Positions 3,814 to 25,987 of a stretch of DNA of 64,000 bases are shown here, piece by piece. The first letter of the stretch is position 1; every line of letters starts with the position of its first letter. The notes under the pieces are model-generated. The model was not told the origin of the DNA. It searched no databases and saw nothing but the letters and a program-made list of their open reading frames with translations. Origin of the DNA: Egicoccus halophilus (lineage in GTDB: Bacteria > Actinomycetota > Nitriliruptoria > Nitriliruptorales > Nitriliruptoraceae). The translations under genes were made by a program, and so were the position numbers. Location of the stretch: positions 248,001 to 312,000 of the forward strand of contig NZ_CP036250.1 in NCBI RefSeq assembly GCF_004300825.1, written 5' to 3'.

Positions 3814-4790
3814 GCGGCGCGCCGCTTCCACACCAGGGCCGTCACCACGGCGGCACCCGTCCCGCCGACGAGCGCGAGCGTGCGGCCGGGCTTGCCGGCC
3901 CGCGACGGCTTCCAGCCGCCGCTGACCGAGGTGCCCTGCGACACGGGCTCGAACAGGTTGCCGGAGGTGGGTTCCTCGGCCTCGTCGGTGAGGTGCGACG
4001 CCATCATGGGCTTGGCCGCGGCCCGCTCGGTCAGTCCCGGGAAGAGCCGGTAGGCGAGCAACGCCGGCCGGGTCGCGGCGCTGACGGGAACCTCGCGTCG
4101 CGGCTTGACGACGTTCTTGACGATCGCCGCAGCGACCCGCGCCGCGTCGACGGTCGGCTCGGGCGGCTTGACCCGCCAGCCGGTGTGGTTGGCCGCGTGC
4201 TGGAACAGCGGGGTGTCGATGGGACCCGGCATGATCAGCGACAACCGGATGCCCTTGGCGTCCTGCAGCTCCTGGCGCAGCGACTCGGTGAGCCCGCGGA
4301 TGCCGAACTTGCTGGCGATGTACGCGCTCTGCAACGGCGCCGGCACCTTCGACAGGATCGAGCCGACGTTGACCAACGTCCCGTGACCCTGTTCACGGAA
4401 CCACGGCAGCGCCGCACGGGCACCGTGGGCGTAGCCGAGCAGGTTGGTCTCGATCACGCGACGCCACTCGTCGAGCGGCACCTCCTCGAAGCGGCCGTAC
4501 TGGTTGACGGCCGCGTTGTTGACCCACGCGTCGAGCTTGCCGAAGCGACCGACGGTGTCGCGGGCGACGCGCTCGAGCGCCTCGGCGTCGTTGACGTCGG
4601 CGGCCTCGACGACGAGCCGTTGGCGGGCCTCGGCGTCGAACCCGTCGGCGAGCTCGCGCAGGGCGTCCTCGCGTCGGGCGACGGCCACCACGGTGCTGCC
4701 GGCCCGCACCAGCGCCTCGGCGGTGGCCCGGCCGATGCCGCTGGAGGCCCCGGTCACCACGACGACCGCATCCTGGAGCTTGGTTCGCAC
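3810..4790 (-). CDS. SDR-family short-chain dehydrogenase with C-terminal membrane anchor
   Basis: A 326-aa classical short-chain dehydrogenase. The nucleotide-binding motif TGASSGIG lies at residues 13-20, the NNAA motif near residue 88, and the catalytic Ser and YxxxK (YIASK) near residues 140-160. After the Rossmann domain there is an extension ending in a hydrophobic segment (LALVGGTGAAVVTALVW) followed by KRR, probably a C-terminal membrane anchor. The start is the GTG at 4790, preceded by a GGAGGG ribosome site; longer in-frame starts upstream carry only low-complexity sequence. First gene of a four-gene operon with a hydrolase; a role in lipid or fatty-acyl metabolism at the membrane is inferred. 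Confidence 0.88.
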   Translation of the reverse strand: MRTKLQDAVVVVTGASSGIGRATAEALVRAGSTVVAVARREDALRELADGFDAEARQRLVVEAADVNDAEALERVARDTVGRFGKLDAWVNNAAVNQYGRFEEVPLDEWRRVIETNLLGYAHGARAALPWFREQGHGTLVNVGSILSKVPAPLQSAYIASKFGIRGLTESLRQELQDAKGIRLSLIMPGPIDTPLFQHAANHTGWRVKPPEPTVDAARVAAAIVKNVVKPRREVPVSAATRPALLAYRLFPGLTERAAAKPMMASHLTDEAEEPTSGNLFEPVSQGTSVSGGWKPSRAGKPGRTLALVGGTGAAVVTALVWKRRAA

Positions 4791-16828: not shown

Positions 16829-18844
16829 TCAGCCGGACGGCCCGTCGCCGACGCGTTCTTCCCGGCCGGCGACGGGCCGCCCGGCGACGATCCGGGAGTT
16901 GTCCACCGCGATGACCAGCGACGCGCCCACGGGGGCCGCGCGCGAGATCCGGGCCGCCACCGAGGTGAGGTTCGCCTCGTCGGCGACCGTCGGCACGACG
17001 ACCAGGTCCGTGGGCCGCGCCAGGTCCCGGACCACGATCGAGCGGCGTCGGCCGTCATGGGCGACCTGGACCTCGAGGTGTTCGCGCACCCGGCGGTCGA
17101 CGGCCGTGTCGGCGAGTTGGCCGACCACCTCGACGCGGACGCCACCGGCCTCGCGTGCCAGCACCCGCGCGGTCTCCAGCCCGAGCTCCAGTGCGGGTCC
17201 GCCGGCCGGCGACAGGATGGTCTCGTCGAGGACGACCAGGACCCGCTCGAGGCGCTGCTCGCCCTCGCGGACGAGCAGCAGCGGCACGTGCGCGCGTGCG
17301 AGGACCCGGTCGATGACGCTGCCGAAGCGCGCCCCGTGGCGGTCGGTGCCGCCCTTCCAGCCCATCACCAGCAGCGACGCCTGTTGTTCGACGACGGTGT
17401 GCGCGATGCCGGCATCGGTGGAGGCGTCGATGCGCAGGACGCTGCGGGCCTCGGCACCGGCGGACTGGGCGACCTGCACCACCTCGCTGTCGAGCTCGCG
17501 CACGGCGCGCAGGCGGTCGTCGTCGGTTCCGGCGGGCACCACCATCAACGGCACGACCACGCCCCCGTCGGCACGGGCGAACGCGGAGGCCACCCGCACC
17601 AGGCGCGGCGCGGTGGCCGGGTTGGCCATGGGCACCACGACGACCTCGCCGAGGTCGCGCACCACCTCCGGGCGGGGCAGCCGGGGCGCGAAGCGGGTGG
17701 CGACCGCGGGCGCCACCAGGCAGGTCACCAGGATCACCAGCATGACGCTGTTGACGGTGCTCTCGTCGATGAGCCCGACGTTGAGCCCGACCACGATCGC
17801 CGCCAGGGTCGCGGCGGCCTGCGCGGCCGACAGCGCGAACATCGCGCCGATCTCGGCGCCGCTGTAGTGCAGCACCCGGCCGGAGATCCACGCGGCCGAG
17901 AACTTGGCGACCAGGGCGACGGCGGTGAACACGATGCCCACGAGCAGCGTGCGCGGCTCGAGGAGGACCTCGACGTCGACGAGCATGCCGGTCGCGAGCA
18001 GGAACAACGGGATGAACAGCGAGGCGCCGAGGAAGTCGATGCGCTCCATCAGCGCACCGCCGTTGGGCACGCTGCGGTTGAGCGCCAGGCCGGCGAGGAA
18101 CGCACCGACGATGGCCTCGATGCCGATGAGCTCCGCCAGCGAGGCCACGACGAACAGTGCGACGAGCACGAACAGGAACCGCAGCGAGCGGTCCTGCCCC
18201 AGGTTGGAGAAGAACCACCGGGCCAGCCGCGGCAGTCCCAGGACCGCGCCCGCGGCGAGCAGGGCCATCGACGGCAGCAACGTCAACCAGAACACCGGCG
18301 TGAGCGCGCCCTGGAACGCCCGGGCAACGACGGCCAGCACCAGCAGCGCGGCGGTGTCGGTGATGATCGTGGCCCCGACCGAGGTCGCCACCGCCCGGTT
18401 GCCCATCGTGCCCACCCGCTGGAAGGCCGGGTAGGTCACCAGCGTGTGCGACGCCCAGCACGACGCCAGCAGCACCGCGGCCAGCAGTTCGTAGCCGAGC
18501 GCCAACGCCGACGCCGTGCCGAGCACCATCGGCACCGCGAACGTCAGCACCCCGAACCCGATCGAGTCACGTCGGTGGGCGATGAAGTCGTCGAGGTCGA
18601 GCTCCAGGCCCGCGACGAACATCAGGTACAGCAGTCCGACGCCGCCGAGCACCTCGACCACACCGGCGCGTTCGACCAGCCCGAGACCGGTGGGCCCGAT
18701 CGCGAAGCCGACGAGCACGACCGTGACCACCTCCGGCAGTCGCAGCCGGCGGGCCAGGATCGGCGCCAGCAGGATCGCCGCCGTCAGCACCGCGAAGATC
18801 AGCCCTGGTTCGTGCAACGGCAGGGCGGGGATCTCGAAGGACAT
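16829..18844 (-). CDS. CPA2-family cation:proton antiporter fused to universal stress domains
   Basis: A 671-aa protein. Residues 1-~390 form a 12-13-helix CPA2 (Kef/NapA type) antiporter: GFAIGPTGLGLV, the long helix with AFLAGLALNRSVP, and amphipathic re-entrant segments. Residues ~400-671 hold two universal-stress-protein-like domains; the first ends in VMGWKGG...FGSVIDRVL, an ATP-binding USP signature. Such proteins exchange K+ or Na+ for H+. The ATG at 18844 was chosen over upstream starts without membrane sequence. A c-di-AMP riboswitch lies in its leader on the same strand, so expression likely follows c-di-AMP and thus K+ status. A paralogue lies upstream at 19151. Confidence 0.9.
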   Translation of the reverse strand: MSFEIPALPLHEPGLIFAVLTAAILLAPILARRLRLPEVVTVVLVGFAIGPTGLGLVERAGVVEVLGGVGLLYLMFVAGLELDLDDFIAHRRDSIGFGVLTFAVPMVLGTASALALGYELLAAVLLASCWASHTLVTYPAFQRVGTMGNRAVATSVGATIITDTAALLVLAVVARAFQGALTPVFWLTLLPSMALLAAGAVLGLPRLARWFFSNLGQDRSLRFLFVLVALFVVASLAELIGIEAIVGAFLAGLALNRSVPNGGALMERIDFLGASLFIPLFLLATGMLVDVEVLLEPRTLLVGIVFTAVALVAKFSAAWISGRVLHYSGAEIGAMFALSAAQAAATLAAIVVGLNVGLIDESTVNSVMLVILVTCLVAPAVATRFAPRLPRPEVVRDLGEVVVVPMANPATAPRLVRVASAFARADGGVVVPLMVVPAGTDDDRLRAVRELDSEVVQVAQSAGAEARSVLRIDASTDAGIAHTVVEQQASLLVMGWKGGTDRHGARFGSVIDRVLARAHVPLLLVREGEQRLERVLVVLDETILSPAGGPALELGLETARVLAREAGGVRVEVVGQLADTAVDRRVREHLEVQVAHDGRRRSIVVRDLARPTDLVVVPTVADEANLTSVAARISRAAPVGASLVIAVDNSRIVAGRPVAGREERVGDGPSG

Positions 18845-18934
18845 TGCGGACCTCGGCGGACTCGCGCGCGACGATTCGCGTGGAGGCCGCACGGGTCGTC
18901 GTGGGCGACGACGTCTGCGCGACGCTCCTCCGGT

Positions 18935-19092
18935 GTGCCTACGGGGTTAGCTGACGGGCTCGGGCGCGAAGGTCGCCTTACCGCTCGCGAGAGCGGATCC
19001 GCCCCGGGGTGGCCGCAGCCACCTGGTTGGGTCCCCCGTCCCGGACGGTCGCGGCCGGGTTCGGCGTAGCCCGGCAACGGTAGCGATCTCTC
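18935..19092 (-). promoter_or_regulatory. ydaO/yuaA-type c-di-AMP riboswitch
   Basis: On the minus strand the segment begins with ATCGCTACCGTTGCCGGG, passes through CGAACCCGG, ACGGGGGACCCAA and GGGGCGGATCCG, and closes with CCCGTCAGCTAACC and CGTAGGC (18937-18958). These are the conserved blocks of the actinobacterial ydaO/yuaA c-di-AMP aptamer, in the right order. It lies between two CPA2 antiporter genes, about 90 bases before the start of the downstream one at 18844. Members of this class usually lower expression when c-di-AMP binds. Bases 18845-18934 would hold the expression platform; no clear terminator with a T-run is seen there. Confidence 0.88.
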
Positions 19093-19150
19093 GCCGTGCG
19101 GGCCCCACGACGCCGCCGACGCCACGCGTACGCGACCGCGATGCCCCGGT

Positions 19151-21136
19151 CTAGCGGGGTACGACCACCACGACGGTGCGTCCGCGCGCGGCCTGCGCGA
19201 CCCGGTGAGCGCCGCGACCGAGCCGGCTGGCGGCCGGTGGCGTCACCGCCACGACGATGTCCCCCTCCCCGACCCGACTGGCCAGGGCCCGCAGCACCGC
19301 CGGCTCGGTGACGACCTCGCTGGGCCGCAGGTGCCCCTCGAGGCGCTCGCGCAGTTCCTGTTCGGGAAGGTCGCTGATGACCAGCGAGGAGACCTCCGCC
19401 TGCCGGGTGAGTCGACCGACCACCTCGGCGGCGAGGATCAGGCCGCGGTCGTGCCCGAACGCGATCTCGTCGGAGGTCACCACGAGCACCACGCGACCCG
19501 TCGGCTCGTCCAGCCCGGGGCGGCAGACCAGGACCGGCACCGGGCTGATGGCCACACAACGGTCGATGACGGTGCCGAACAGCGAGCCGCTACGACGTGT
19601 CTGGCCCTCCCAACCCATCACGAGACAGGTGCCGTCCTGCTCGACGATGCTGTGCAGTACGCCGCCGTCGATCGAGGCGTCGATCCGCACGCTGGTGTTG
19701 ACCTCCGACCCGGTCGCCAGCGCGGCCCGCTCGGCGCGCGCCGCCAACGCCTTGTTGCTGCGCACCTGGTCGGGTGCGGCGTCGAAGGGCAGCACGTTGA
19801 CGGCGACCACGGCGCCCGAGTCCGGCGCGGCGATCTGTCCGGCGACGCGCACCAGCGACTCGATCGTGTCGGGGTTGGAGACCGGCACGACCACCCGTTT
19901 GCCCAACGAACGGCCCTCGGTGCCCGGCGGGGTGATCCGGGGCGCGTGCCGGTCGGCACTGACGCCGGCCAGCAGGGCGGTGACCATGATGACCAGGATG
20001 ATCGCGTTCACCTCGGGCGGACCGAGCAGGCCGAGCTCCTGGCCCACGACCACGGCGGCGAGCGCCCCGGCCGCCTGCCCGACGCTGAGCGAGAACATCA
20101 GCCCGCGTTCGCTGGCGGAGAAGCCGAGCCAGCGACCGGAGATCGACGACGCGCCCCACTTGGAGGCCACCTCGGCGGCGACCAGCACGGCGCCCAGGGT
20201 GATCGTCGTCGGGTCGGTCACCAACGCCACCGGGTCGAGCATCATCCCGGTGCTGATGAGGAACGCGGGGATGAACAGCGAACGCCCCAGGAACGCGACC
20301 CGGTCGGCGATCACCGTGCCGTCGGGGACGAACCGGTTGAACGCGAGCCCGGCGAGGAAGGCGCCCACGATCGGTTCGATGCCGATCATCCCGGCCAGCA
20401 CGGCCGCCAGGCCCATGCCCGACAACAGGTAGGTGAGTCGGACCTCACGGTCCTGCCCCAGCCCACGGAAGAACCAGCGCGTCAGGCGTGGGACGGCCAG
20501 CAGCATGAAGGCCAGGTAACCGATCATGCCGCCGGTGAACAGCAGCCAGTAGCCCACGCCCTCGTTTCCCTGCGCACCGGCCGAGGCGACCGCCAGCACG
20601 AGCAGCGCCGCGACGGTCGCGAGCAACGTCGCACCGAGGCTGGCGGTCACCGCCGGATTGCGCGACAGGTCGTAGCGGGCGATCGTCGGATAGGACAGGG
20701 GCGTGTGGCTGGTCAGCGCCGAGCCGATGATGACCGCCGCGAGGAACGGCACGTCGAGGGCCAGGGCCGCGGCGGTGACCACCAGCATCGGCAGCACGAA
20801 CGTGACCGCCCCGAACACCACCGAGGCGCGCCGCCGCTCGACGAAGCCCTCGAGGTCGAGGTCGAGCCCTCCCTGGAACATCAGGTAGAGCAGGCCGACG
20901 AAGCCGAGCGCGTTGATCAGGACCTCGCCGGAGACGACGCCGAGGACGTTGGGCCCGACGACCATGCCCAGGCCGATCAGACCCACCAGGTCGGGCAGCC
21001 GCAGCGGCCGCGTGATCATGGGACCGAGGAGCACGAGCAGCAGCAGCACCGCGAAGACGGCGCCGGCGTCGGTCAGCGGGAACAGGTCCTCGAGCACCAC
21101 CACTCGCTGTGCGGAAGTGGTGAACGCTAGCTTCAC
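19151..21136 (-). CDS. CPA2-family cation:proton antiporter fused to universal stress domains (paralogue)
   Basis: About 661 aa with the same architecture as the downstream antiporter: an N-terminal membrane half (MVVGPNVLGVVSGE, PIVGAFLAGLAFNRFVPDG) of 12-13 helices and a C-terminal half with two USP-like domains (VMGWEGQ...LFGTVIDR). The start is uncertain: GTG 21136 is used, but GTGs at 21097-21103 would give the same N-terminal length as the paralogue. It probably arose by tandem duplication and has diverged. It is divergent from the LCP gene at 21306 across about 170 bases; I see no riboswitch in front of this copy. Confidence 0.9.
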   Translation of the reverse strand: MKLAFTTSAQRVVVLEDLFPLTDAGAVFAVLLLLVLLGPMITRPLRLPDLVGLIGLGMVVGPNVLGVVSGEVLINALGFVGLLYLMFQGGLDLDLEGFVERRRASVVFGAVTFVLPMLVVTAAALALDVPFLAAVIIGSALTSHTPLSYPTIARYDLSRNPAVTASLGATLLATVAALLVLAVASAGAQGNEGVGYWLLFTGGMIGYLAFMLLAVPRLTRWFFRGLGQDREVRLTYLLSGMGLAAVLAGMIGIEPIVGAFLAGLAFNRFVPDGTVIADRVAFLGRSLFIPAFLISTGMMLDPVALVTDPTTITLGAVLVAAEVASKWGASSISGRWLGFSASERGLMFSLSVGQAAGALAAVVVGQELGLLGPPEVNAIILVIMVTALLAGVSADRHAPRITPPGTEGRSLGKRVVVPVSNPDTIESLVRVAGQIAAPDSGAVVAVNVLPFDAAPDQVRSNKALAARAERAALATGSEVNTSVRIDASIDGGVLHSIVEQDGTCLVMGWEGQTRRSGSLFGTVIDRCVAISPVPVLVCRPGLDEPTGRVVLVVTSDEIAFGHDRGLILAAEVVGRLTRQAEVSSLVISDLPEQELRERLEGHLRPSEVVTEPAVLRALASRVGEGDIVVAVTPPAASRLGRGAHRVAQAARGRTVVVVVPR

Positions 21137-21305: not shown

Positions 21306-22526
21306 GTGGCCGGATCCGTGCCGCAGACGACGACGGGCCGCGGCGACCGCACGCCGGGCTGGGGCCGGCGTGCGCTGTGGGTCGTGCTCGGCGTCCTGCT
21401 CCTGGTGGCCATCGGGGCGACGGTGGCGATCTGGTCGCTGGACGCCTCCATCGACCGGGTCGGCGTCGACGGACTCGGCGAATCCCCACCGGTCGGGACC
21501 GGTGGGGACGACGCCACCGGCGTGGGTGACGGCGAGGGCACCGATGCGAGCGCGCTGACCGTGCTCGTGCTGGGATCGGACTCGCGCGAGGTGCTGACCC
21601 CCGAGGAACGGGTCGAGCTCGGGACCGGCAACGCCTGGGGGGAGCGCACCGAGGTGATCTCCCTGGTGCGCCTGGCACCCGAGGACGAGGAGATCCGCAT
21701 GCTCAGCGTGCCGCGCGACACGCTGCTCGAGCGCTGCGACGGCACCAGCGGTCGGATCAACGCCGCGTACACGATCGGCGAGCTCGACGGTCGCGGTGGG
21801 TCGACCTGCGTGGTCGAGACCCTGTCGGCGTGGTTGGACGTGCGCATCGACCACGTCGTGAAGGTCGACTTCCGGGGGTTCGTGGACATCGTCGACGCCC
21901 TGGGCGGCGTGTCGATGTACCTCGAGGAGCCGCTGCAGGACGACAACGCCAACCTCGACCTGCGGGCCGGTTGCGTGCGCCTCGACGGTGCCGATGCGCT
22001 GGCCTTCGTCCGCGCGCGCCACATCGACGACGACTTCGGGCGCATGGGGCGCCAGCAGCGCTTCGTGACCGAGCTGCGCAACGAGCTCGCCGCGGTGGGC
22101 GTGTTCGACGACCCGGCCCGGACCTACCGCGTCGCCGAGGCGGTCGCCCGGTCGCTCGAACTGGACGACACGCTGACGCTCAACCGCATCCAACAGCTGG
22201 CCCGGGAGCACCGCACGACGCTGCAGGGCGGGCTCGAAGGGCAGGTCGTCCCCGGCGACATCGAGGTCATCAGCGAAGCCGCCTACGTGGTGGTCGACGA
22301 GCAACGCGCCCACGAGCTGGTGCAGTGGCTGTTGACCGGCGTCGATCCCGCGGAGCCGTCGTCGCCCGCGGCCGGCGGCGGTGGCTCGCCGATCGGTGAC
22401 GACACCTCGGGTGCATCCGACGACGGGGGCGACGACGTGACCGCGGGCGCCGCGCAGGGCCTCGGCACCGACAGCGACGAGCCGGCGGCGCCGTCACCGG
22501 TCGAGCGAAGCGCCGGCTGCCGGTGA
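21306..22526 (+). CDS. LytR-CpsA-Psr (LCP) family cell-wall ligase
   Basis: A 406-aa type II membrane protein: one helix at residues ~21-46, then an extracellular LCP domain that transfers lipid-linked glycopolymers to peptidoglycan. Typical signatures are LVLGSDSRE, MLSVPRDT, DALGGVSMYL, FVRARHIDDDFGRMGRQQRF with the Arg/Asp residues that bind the pyrophosphate. A low-complexity Gly/Asp/Ser tail of ~55 residues follows. The start used is GTG 21306, overlapping an earlier GTG by one base. Downstream lies the Mn2+ riboswitch; LCP enzymes use Mg2+ or Mn2+, so the proximity may or may not matter. Confidence 0.9.
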   Translation: MAGSVPQTTTGRGDRTPGWGRRALWVVLGVLLLVAIGATVAIWSLDASIDRVGVDGLGESPPVGTGGDDATGVGDGEGTDASALTVLVLGSDSREVLTPEERVELGTGNAWGERTEVISLVRLAPEDEEIRMLSVPRDTLLERCDGTSGRINAAYTIGELDGRGGSTCVVETLSAWLDVRIDHVVKVDFRGFVDIVDALGGVSMYLEEPLQDDNANLDLRAGCVRLDGADALAFVRARHIDDDFGRMGRQQRFVTELRNELAAVGVFDDPARTYRVAEAVARSLELDDTLTLNRIQQLAREHRTTLQGGLEGQVVPGDIEVISEAAYVVVDEQRAHELVQWLLTGVDPAEPSSPAAGGGGSPIGDDTSGASDDGGDDVTAGAAQGLGTDSDEPAAPSPVERSAGCR

Positions 22527-23408: not shown

Positions 23409-23798
23409 TCACCAGCGGGTGAGCACCACGACGGCGACCAGCACCCCGACGACCAGCTGCCCGAGCAGATCCACCAGGGCGATGACGAGCGGGCGCCGGA
23501 CACCCTCGTCCCAGGCGCCGACCGCGTCGACCACCCAGGTCGAGAACGTGGTCAGCGCACCACAGAAGCCGGTCCCGATCACCAGGACCGCCGCCGTCGG
23601 CAGGCGTCCGGCGCGCTCGAGCCCGACCACGGCGGCGAGCAGTGCCGCACCGGTGAGGTTGCAGGTGGCGACGGCGACGGCTCGGGCGGCCGGTGAGCGC
23701 GCCGCCCCCGCGGCGGCCACGAGGTGGCGCACGAGCGCACCGAGCGCGCCCGCGCCGGCCACCGCGGCCAGACCGGCGAGCAGGACGAGCGGCGTCAC
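23409..23798 (-). CDS. crcB: Fluoride channel FluC/CrcB, subunit 1
   Basis: A 129-aa four-helix membrane protein. The Fluc signature GTGFCGALTTFSTW (residues ~75-88) includes the phenylalanines and the Na+-site turn of the channel, and N-terminal GALGALVRH is typical. Fluc channels are dual-topology dimers that let F- leave the cell. The GTG start overlaps the stop of the upstream crcB as GTGA, so the pair probably forms a heterodimer, as known for paired crcB genes in Gram-positives. Confidence 0.93.
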   Translation of the reverse strand: MTPLVLLAGLAAVAGAGALGALVRHLVAAAGAARSPAARAVAVATCNLTGAALLAAVVGLERAGRLPTAAVLVIGTGFCGALTTFSTWVVDAVGAWDEGVRRPLVIALVDLLGQLVVGVLVAVVVLTRW

Positions 23799-24187
23799 GT
23801 GCCACCCCGACGCAGGCCGGCGGCCGCCGCGGCCACCCCACCGGCCAGGCTGCTGGCGGCCCAGACCAGCGCGAGCGGCCCGGCGCCGTCGACCAGCAGC
23901 AGGGCGAGCGGCACGACCAGGCCGGAGAAGGTGGTCAGCGCGCCCAGCAGCCCGGTGCCGAGCAATGGCAGGCGTGCACGTCGTCGCGGATCGTGGCGTG
24001 CCCCCACCACGAGCCGGGCGAGCAGGTAGGTGCCGGTCACGTTGAGCACCAACAGCGGCACCAATTCGCTGTGCACGGCCGACAGGACGGCCAGGACGGC
24101 ACCCGCCCGCAGCAACGACCCGACGGCTCCCCCGACGGCCACGTCGCGGAGCGTCCGGGCATCGGTCGGTCCTGGCAGCGCACGCAC
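23795..24187 (-). CDS. crcB: Fluoride channel FluC/CrcB, subunit 2
   Basis: A 130-aa four-helix protein, the partner of the downstream crcB. It has GGAVGSLLRAG at the N-terminus and GTGLLGALTTFSGLV in place of the canonical GTGFCGALTTFST, so the hallmark motif is kept but with Leu-Leu for Phe-Cys. Divergence between two coupled crcB copies is normal when each takes one orientation in the dimer. The GTG at 24187 was chosen because upstream sequence is not membrane-like. I looked for a fluoride riboswitch in the 120 bases upstream and saw none. Confidence 0.9.
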   Translation of the reverse strand: MRALPGPTDARTLRDVAVGGAVGSLLRAGAVLAVLSAVHSELVPLLVLNVTGTYLLARLVVGARHDPRRRARLPLLGTGLLGALTTFSGLVVPLALLLVDGAGPLALVWAASSLAGGVAAAAAGLRRGGT

Positions 24188-24305
24188 GTGCCCGACGCTA
24201 GCCCGGCGGGGACGCGCGGTGCCCGGCCTGACGTCGCCGTCGCGAGGTGGCGTCCGGGACGCGGGCTCTGGCAGGCTCGCGTCCCGTTCCCGCAGGAGCT
24301 CGTCC

Positions 24306-25073
24306 ATGTCGCGACTCACCGTCCGTCCCGCCGCGCACGGGGTCGTCGTCCTCACGTTGGACGCCCCCGACCGGCGCAACGCCCTGGACCTGCCCACGAT
24401 GCAGGACCTGGTCGCGCGGTTGCGGGCCGCCGACGGCGACGACGAGGTCCGCGCCATCGTGCTGACCGGCGCGGACCCGGCCTTCTGCGCGGGGCTGGAC
24501 CTCGCCGCGGTGAGTGCCGGCGAGCTGGTGCTCGAGGAGGTCGAGTCGCTCGACGCCGACCCGTGGAAGACCCTGCAGGAGTTGTCGACCCCGACGATCG
24601 CGGCCGTGAACGGGCCCGCGGTCACCGGCGGGCTGGAACTGGCGCTGTGCTGCGACCTCGCGGTCGCCTCGCCGCAGGCCCGCTTCGCCGACACCCACGC
24701 CCGGGTCGGCATCCACCCCTCCGGTGGCCTGTCGGTGCTGCTGCCGCGCTTCGTCGGCCTGCGTACGGCGCTGGGCATGAGCCTGACCGGACGCTTCGTC
24801 GCCGCCGACGAGGCGCTGGCACTCGGGCTCGTGAACGCGGTCGTCGAACACGACGAGCTGTTGCGAACCGCGCTGTCGCTCGGCGAGGCGATCGGGGAGA
24901 CCGACCCGGTCGTCGTGCGCACGCTGCTGCAGACCTACCGGCAACTGTCCGGTGTGCCGCTGGCCGACGCGCTCGCGCAGGAACGACGGCGAGGTCGTTC
25001 CCTGACGGTCGACGCCGAGGCGGTCGAGCGTCGCCGTGCCGCCGTGATCGAACGCGGCCGTCGCCAGCTGTAG
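24306..25073 (+). CDS. Enoyl-CoA hydratase/isomerase (crotonase) family protein
   Basis: A 255-aa crotonase-fold protein. The CoA/oxyanion segments are present: DRRNALDLPTMQDL, FCAGLDLA, and NGPAVTGGLELALCCDLAVAS. The catalytic glutamates of true hydratases are not obvious: the second site reads GIHPSGGLSVLLPR where a hydratase would have a Glu. It may be an isomerase, a hydrolase or another crotonase-fold enzyme. The ATG at 24306 follows an AGGAGCTCGTCC ribosome site. It is followed 47 bases later by uppP; no beta-oxidation cluster surrounds it. Confidence 0.85.
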   Translation: MSRLTVRPAAHGVVVLTLDAPDRRNALDLPTMQDLVARLRAADGDDEVRAIVLTGADPAFCAGLDLAAVSAGELVLEEVESLDADPWKTLQELSTPTIAAVNGPAVTGGLELALCCDLAVASPQARFADTHARVGIHPSGGLSVLLPRFVGLRTALGMSLTGRFVAADEALALGLVNAVVEHDELLRTALSLGEAIGETDPVVVRTLLQTYRQLSGVPLADALAQERRRGRSLTVDAEAVERRRAAVIERGRRQL

Positions 25074-25120
25074 CCGCACAGGCCGCTTCCGCCGCCTCCC
25101 CGACATCTGCCGAGGTCTGC

Positions 25121-25987
25121 ATGTCCCTGTTCGTCGCCTTCGTGCTCGGCGTCGTGCAGGGCGTCTTCATGTTCTTCCCGGTCTCCTCGACCAGCCACCT
25201 GGTCCTCACCCAGACCCTGTTGCGCAGTCTCGGACAGGACCTGCCGCCGCCCGAGAGCGCCGAGATGGTGCTGTTCGACCTGCTCGTGCACGTCGGCACG
25301 CTCGTGTCGATCGCGGTCGTCATGGGCGCCGGGTTGCGGGCACTGGGTGCCGGGGTCGTCGACGACCTCACCTCCGGTCGCCTGCGCGCCGGCGGCCTGC
25401 GTGAGGCGGTGTCCACCCGACTGATCGCGTTGGGGCTGCTCACGACCGCCGTCACCGGGGTGCTGGGGTTGCTGTTCGTCGACCAGCTCACGACCGGCTT
25501 CGGGTCGCCGACCGCGATCGCGGTGGCGTTGATCGGCACGGGCGCGATGCTGTGGTGGACCGACAAGGCCGGCCCCGGACGGCTGCGTGCGCCCGACGTC
25601 GGCATCGGCGTGGCGATCGCGATCGGGGTGGCGCAGTTCGCCGCGTTGATGCCCGGGCTGTCCCGCTCGGGGACGACGATCTTCGCCGCGCTGCTCGTCG
25701 GCATGCACCGCAAGCTCGCGGCCCGCTACTCGTTCTTCGTCGCCATCCCGACGATCCTGGGGGCGTCGGCCCTGCAACTGCGCGACGTGCTGGACGCCGG
25801 CGGCCTGGTCGCCATCAGCTGGTCGGCGATGGCGGTCGGCATGCTGACCGCCGCGGTGGTCGGTGCGGGGGCACTGTGGGCGGTGCTGCGTCTGCTCGAG
25901 CAGGCACGGTTCCGGATCTTCTCGCTGTACGTGTGGCTGCTCGCAGGGGTCATCCTGGTCACCGGGTTCGGGGCCGAGGCCGGCTGA
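25121..25987 (+). CDS. uppP: Undecaprenyl-diphosphatase UppP/BacA family
   Basis: A 288-aa protein with 7-8 helices. UppP removes one phosphate from undecaprenyl pyrophosphate on the outer face of the membrane. The first motif reads QGVFMFFPVSSTSH (residues 13-26): the Q, the SS pair and His fit, but the second acidic residue of the (E/Q)xxxE motif, E21 in the E. coli protein, is Met17 here. The second motif PGLSRSGTT is complete. The change could weaken or alter activity. The only copy of this family in the window, near cell-wall genes, start at ATG 25121. Confidence 0.85.
   Translation: MSLFVAFVLGVVQGVFMFFPVSSTSHLVLTQTLLRSLGQDLPPPESAEMVLFDLLVHVGTLVSIAVVMGAGLRALGAGVVDDLTSGRLRAGGLREAVSTRLIALGLLTTAVTGVLGLLFVDQLTTGFGSPTAIAVALIGTGAMLWWTDKAGPGRLRAPDVGIGVAIAIGVAQFAALMPGLSRSGTTIFAALLVGMHRKLAARYSFFVAIPTILGASALQLRDVLDAGGLVAISWSAMAVGMLTAAVVGAGALWAVLRLLEQARFRIFSLYVWLLAGVILVTGFGAEAG

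Follow-up and report, generated by a model that had tools for sequence, protein, structure and literature searches.

In the organisms studied so far, c-di-AMP is high when cellular K+ is high. The c-di-AMP riboswitches that have been studied are off-switches, and nearly all targets of the actinobacterial ones are cell-wall related (PMC9960051). For the nlpC aptamer of C. glutamicum, c-di-AMP is reported to repress at the level of translation, for which the authors propose a CUCC-GGAG pairing that involves the ribosome site (PMC9960051). Here, we analyze a 64-kb window (the whole 64,000-nucleotide stretch under study) of the Egicoccus halophilus genome, for which a preliminary description had proposed a ydaO/yuaA aptamer at 18845-19150 on the minus strand, between two CPA2-Usp antiporter genes and before a cation:proton antiporter.

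The proposed aptamer is borne out by a covariance-model search. Running Infernal with RF00379, the check suggested in the preliminary description for the reverse strand of 18845-19150, over the whole window gave a match at 19076-18921 (-) that scores 55.9 bits against a gathering cut-off of 38 and covers the full model (1-134), with an E value of 2.9e-10 window-wide and 4.2e-12 genome-wide. With a model built from the eight aptamers that we found in the host's class, the same copy scores 108.4 bits. The c-di-AMP aptamer (18921..19076, minus strand) lies within the spacer between the stop of the upstream antiporter gene, CPA2-A, at 19151 and the ATG of the downstream one, CPA2-B, at 18844-18842. 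Helices are easily found at high G+C, and a chance match in this spacer of 75% G+C is one alternative; we regard it as already refuted and its probability as negligible, given that the E value comes with sequence-conserved blocks, that position and structure recur in a second species, and that both the helices and the pseudoknot covary. Specifically, in the alignment of the eight class aptamers, the RF00379 helices are paired in 98.4% of cells, two-sided changes occur at four pairs (nine cells), and the covariation score exceeds all 500 shuffles and every slid version of the alignment. In addition, the pseudoknot that joins P6 loop and 3' tail is real across 92 actinobacterial aptamers: its mean pairing score is 16.07, as opposed to 13.44 +/- 0.26 for permuted tails, and none of 300 tail permutations reached as high. 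In the window copy, the P6 loop strand CCUUCG (18967..18972, minus strand) pairs with the 3' tail CGGAGG (18927..18932, minus strand) that lies just past P1 (GGC, 18939-18937). The assignment of this RNA to the c-di-AMP riboswitch family is firm.

The leader appears to carry its own promoter. A predicted -10 box, TACCGT (19077..19082, minus strand), sits just ahead of the aptamer, and every one of the eight class aptamers has a TANNNT box that starts 14-21 nt ahead of the GCC of P1, for which the random-site probability is 0.0017. Since a sigma-70 consensus scan of the leader returned no -35/-10 pair, the evidence for a promoter is that the -10 box recurs at a similar distance. This recurrence strongly suggests a transcript start at about 19070, immediately before P1. 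A transcript that begins at the aptamer would give the downstream gene its own promoter, separate from that of the upstream antiporter.

The gene predicted to be under this control encodes CPA2-B (16829..18844, minus strand; 671 aa), which contains a Na_H_Exchanger domain (PF00999, E 5e-51) and a Usp domain (PF00582, E 2e-12). Its upstream paralogue CPA2-A (19151..21085, minus strand, start approximate) is 44% identical to it and shows the same two Pfam domains, in keeping with the preliminary description of both flanking genes as CPA2-Usp antiporters. CPA2-B has the features of CPA2 membership, namely the Na_H_Exchanger domain and the ion-binding Asp of TM5, the latter being kept in nearly all of its orthologues. 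It scores 131 bits against a cut-off of 238.3 for the CPA2 subfamily model TIGR00932, of which it may at most be a distant member, and it falls far below the cut-offs of the KefB/KefC K+ efflux equivalogs (KefC, 56 vs 752 bits; KefB, 39 vs 804 bits). By sequence, its nearest solved relative is NapA (4bwz, E 1e-22), with KefC next (4e-11), and its ITDTAALL segment aligns with IDDVLGL of NapA. Both the match to NapA and the conserved Asp of TM5 speak for a working antiporter, which most likely extrudes Na+. The preliminary description had called it a K+/H+-type antiporter, a label that is not supported, the Na+/H+ antiporter NapA being the closer match; one of its own alternatives, a Na+ exporter under an off-switch, is more economical given that nearest solved relative. 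The TM5 Asp is missing from CPA2-A and from its orthologues throughout the family (LLATVAALL vs IITDTAALL in CPA2-B), and CPA2-A may be a non-transporting or altered paralogue. Binding of c-di-AMP by the Usp domains themselves was considered and rejected, as the KdpD-type motif is absent; an ATP-type motif is found in three of the four Usp domains of the antiporters of the window and of the congener G003. Two genes for TrkH-type K+ transporters are also present in the host genome, whose only two aptamers lie elsewhere. Beside the antiporter pair stand a divergent LytR-CpsA-Psr gene (21306-22526, plus strand), which adjoins the pair in G003 too, and a gene of the BacA/UppP undecaprenyl-diphosphatase type (23693-25987, plus strand).

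The preliminary description missed the second aptamer of the 3.98-Mb host genome, as well as a class-wide tie to the Usp module. This second copy (65.9 bits) lies directly before the gene of a 370-aa Usp protein. In the host's class, eight aptamers occur in 6 of 66 genomes; three of them precede a CPA2-Usp antiporter gene (in the window, in G003 and in G046, a genome of another family) and each of the other five lies before a gene for an orthologue of the 370-aa protein. Over its first 250 residues, this protein is homologous to the Usp region at the C-terminus of the antiporter, so all eight class aptamers precede one protein module. G003 repeats the antiporter-aptamer-antiporter layout, with proteins 84% and 76% identical to those of the window. 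The stand-alone Usp protein (L012:6760-7872, and orthologues) has a tandem Usp region like the antiporter tail, together with about 90 additional C-terminal residues that have no Pfam match; the ATP motif of its first Usp domain is incomplete.

Outside the class, the targets differ. Aptamers are present in 78 of 396 sampled Actinomycetota genomes, and five of these 78 belong to the host's class. At the 56 aptamer loci examined outside the class, BLAST detected no relative of either the antiporter or the Usp protein. Among 32 downstream reading frames scanned there, the recognized domains are mostly M23, NlpC/P60, transglycosylase and other peptidoglycan-linked ones, the remaining recognized targets being KdpA and permease-type transporters; downstream genes were chosen by length, such that single assignments may be wrong, while the BLAST test is independent of this choice. 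These mainly cell-wall hydrolase targets agree with the expectation in the preliminary description that such genes are the usual actinobacterial target, as does the literature (PMC9960051), and a cation:proton antiporter is an unusual one for the phylum. In one actinomycete (G388), an aptamer (L080:1001-1133) lies 119 nt before a kdpA-like gene (1252-2979); in one survey, aptamers linked to kdp were confined to Bacillales (PMC6488665). Another genome, G073, has two aptamer matches about 1 kb apart on the same strand (L073:4993-5242 and 3851-4049, minus strand). The target found here and its consistency across the class appear to be new; earlier mention in surveys of ydaO gene associations (PMC2916388, PMC3830699) is possible. 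We tentatively propose, as a reading that we hold with less than even confidence, that the riboswitches of this class were re-targeted from the cell wall to the tandem Usp module, giving a two-gene ion-stress regulon, and that the antiporter leader has a new kind of expression platform, a relay in which the pseudoknot strand of the aptamer serves as an anti-anti-Shine-Dalgarno.

This relay is suggested by the layout of the window leader. About 70 nt downstream of the tail GGAGG is the true Shine-Dalgarno sequence of CPA2-B, GAGG (18851..18854, minus strand; 6 nt before the ATG), and between the two is GGCCUCC (18882..18888, minus strand), which is able to pair with either the tail GGAGG or the Shine-Dalgarno GAGG(UC). 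The antiporter leader of G003 has the same layout, as does the Usp leader of G004 (GAGGAG, CUCCUC, GAGGAG), and the CCUCC element was not seen in the antiporter leaders of the aptamer-free G002 and G012. When the intervening sequence was shuffled, the double complementarity was equaled in 9 of 500 shuffles for the window, 18 of 500 for G003 and 14 of 500 for G004; the third CPA2 leader (G046) was left out of this test on account of its ambiguous start codon. With p at about 0.02-0.04, a relay of the aptamer state to the true Shine-Dalgarno sequence through CCUCC is suggestive and is graded no higher, because the element was noticed by eye before the test and the three leaders include two that are related. 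Among the five Usp leaders, by comparison, there are four in which the GAGGAG strand of the pseudoknot doubles as the Shine-Dalgarno sequence, 5-8 nt before the start codon.

The reading that we favor, with somewhat better than even confidence, is that an own-promoter c-di-AMP riboswitch represses translation of the single downstream antiporter gene through the pseudoknot and the relay, as an off-switch for Na+ export. At high c-di-AMP, the aptamer would fold and its P6 loop would be locked onto the GGAGG tail in the pseudoknot; the locked tail would release CCUCC, which would pair with the Shine-Dalgarno sequence and stop translation. At low c-di-AMP, the tail would hold CCUCC, leaving the ribosome site open for the antiporter to be made. 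At the stand-alone Usp gene of the same genome, c-di-AMP would also repress, probably by the pseudoknot covering the Shine-Dalgarno sequence directly. The c-di-AMP-bound state most likely turns translation off. An off-switch makes sense because the antiporter most likely extrudes Na+, as NapA does; extrapolating from other bacteria, salt stress might lower c-di-AMP and so raise Na+ export.

The same riboswitch might instead stop transcription, with the ligand acting through a terminator hairpin without a U-run. GC-rich hairpins do follow the aptamer (CGCGA-AUCG-UCGCG, 18880-18867), and S. coelicolor rpfA shows c-di-AMP-dependent premature termination (PMC10117811). We consider this mode distinctly less probable than translational control: the leader has no terminator-like site, a terminator scan of it finding no U-tailed terminator; by free-energy folding, the hairpins of the expression platforms are no more stable than those of shuffles; and four of the five Usp leaders go straight from aptamer to start codon, which leaves no space for a terminator.

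The direction of the switch could also be inverted, with c-di-AMP turning the antiporter on, as would suit a K+ exporter. At the protein level, c-di-AMP does activate CPA-family K+ exporters in Bacillus and Staphylococcus (PMC10117811, PMC6488665), and free-energy folds leave the direction unsettled: no consistent one emerged when the eight leaders were folded either freely or with the aptamer pairs enforced. Yet the c-di-AMP riboswitches studied so far switch off (PMC9960051), the overlap of pseudoknot and Shine-Dalgarno sequence in the Usp leaders suggests repression, and the nearest solved transporter is NapA rather than KefC. As such, we find an inverted switch improbable and retain translational repression as the preferred reading.

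The ligand-contact bases of the window copy mostly match; in all, the copy departs at two near-invariant bases. One is a G at 18999 (minus strand), which we provisionally take to be A45 of the crystal numbering; this position is A in 82 of 84 other aptamers and in the seven other class members. The other is an A at 18978 (minus strand), where the invariant G67 is expected, a base that is G in all 84 other aptamers compared. Because these two bases differ, the c-di-AMP affinity of the window copy is uncertain. A45 is a listed ligand contact in the c-di-AMP aptamer (PMC7288161), and the two departures might weaken binding, which counts against our preferred reading. The window copy could then be a decaying aptamer that no longer binds tightly or regulates, heading toward the aptamer-free state of sister species. 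Its RF00379 score is the lowest of the four copies in the genus, the same-genus G001 and G002 have no aptamer, and a weak, partial aptamer-like match persists in the Usp leader of G031 (22.8 bits, E 0.011), a remnant that fits aptamer loss. We nonetheless think decay unlikely, if slightly less so than inversion, for the copy has lost one P6 pair and otherwise keeps its helices, pseudoknot, promoter box and relay intact, and the G67A change, which costs that P6 pair, is common to the window copy and the higher-scoring copy of G003.

Across the class, orthologues of the antiporter and of the Usp protein are widespread and mostly without an aptamer; therefore, aptamer control is not essential to the protein family, and by its distribution it is lineage-specific. 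Within the genus, the window genome (G000) and G003 have the aptamer at both loci, and G001 and G002, which carry both genes, have it at neither. Three accounts of this pattern were rejected. Loss of c-di-AMP synthesis does not explain it, as a DAC domain gene is present in all four genus genomes, G001 and G002 included; in the host, this gene (C1:3887154-3887492, minus strand; E 1.9e-25) is a putative diadenylate cyclase, from which c-di-AMP production is expected. A single gain or a single loss does not suffice on the Usp gene tree, which requires at least 3-4 changes. Nor were aptamers missed by strict filters, since a dedicated model run over the orthologous loci returned only the weak partial G031 match. 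In the Usp leader of G001 (L140, within 300 nt before the Usp gene), two copies of the repeat AACGAGAGAGCGAAGCGAGCGAGACAGGGGACCCGGCCG occupy the place of the relatives' aptamer. The sister species, in which both loci either have the switch or lack it, offer a natural comparison.

These results connect a CPA2-Usp antiporter, and with it a stand-alone Usp protein, to c-di-AMP, and the connection runs via RNA and not via a protein. That the two have a switch in common suggests that they cooperate, and it provides a lead on the role of Usp domains in ion transport.

Compared with the known RF00379 riboswitches (ydaO/yuaA, kimA), the window RNA is alike in aptamer structure, conserved blocks and pseudoknot, and, like the ktrAB and kimA riboswitches of Bacillus, it has a transporter as its target. 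It differs from the known members in its CPA2-Usp target (with a stand-alone Usp relative), in having no U-tailed terminator and in the proposed relay to a distant Shine-Dalgarno sequence. The nlpC riboswitch of C. glutamicum resembles it in being actinobacterial and in likely acting by translational repression, whereas its target is a cell-wall peptidase and the Shine-Dalgarno sequence of the window lies about 70 nt further downstream (PMC9960051). On the protein side, NapA (4bwz) is the best solved relative of CPA2-B and shares the conserved TM5 Asp; the matched NapA chain has no Usp domain, and the first Asp of its DD pair is Thr in CPA2-B. Finally, the RCK_C systems KhtT, CpaA and CpeA likewise tie c-di-AMP to a cation:proton antiporter, but in those systems c-di-AMP binds a protein domain, whereas in the window the tie is through RNA and the antiporter carries Usp, not RCK_C.
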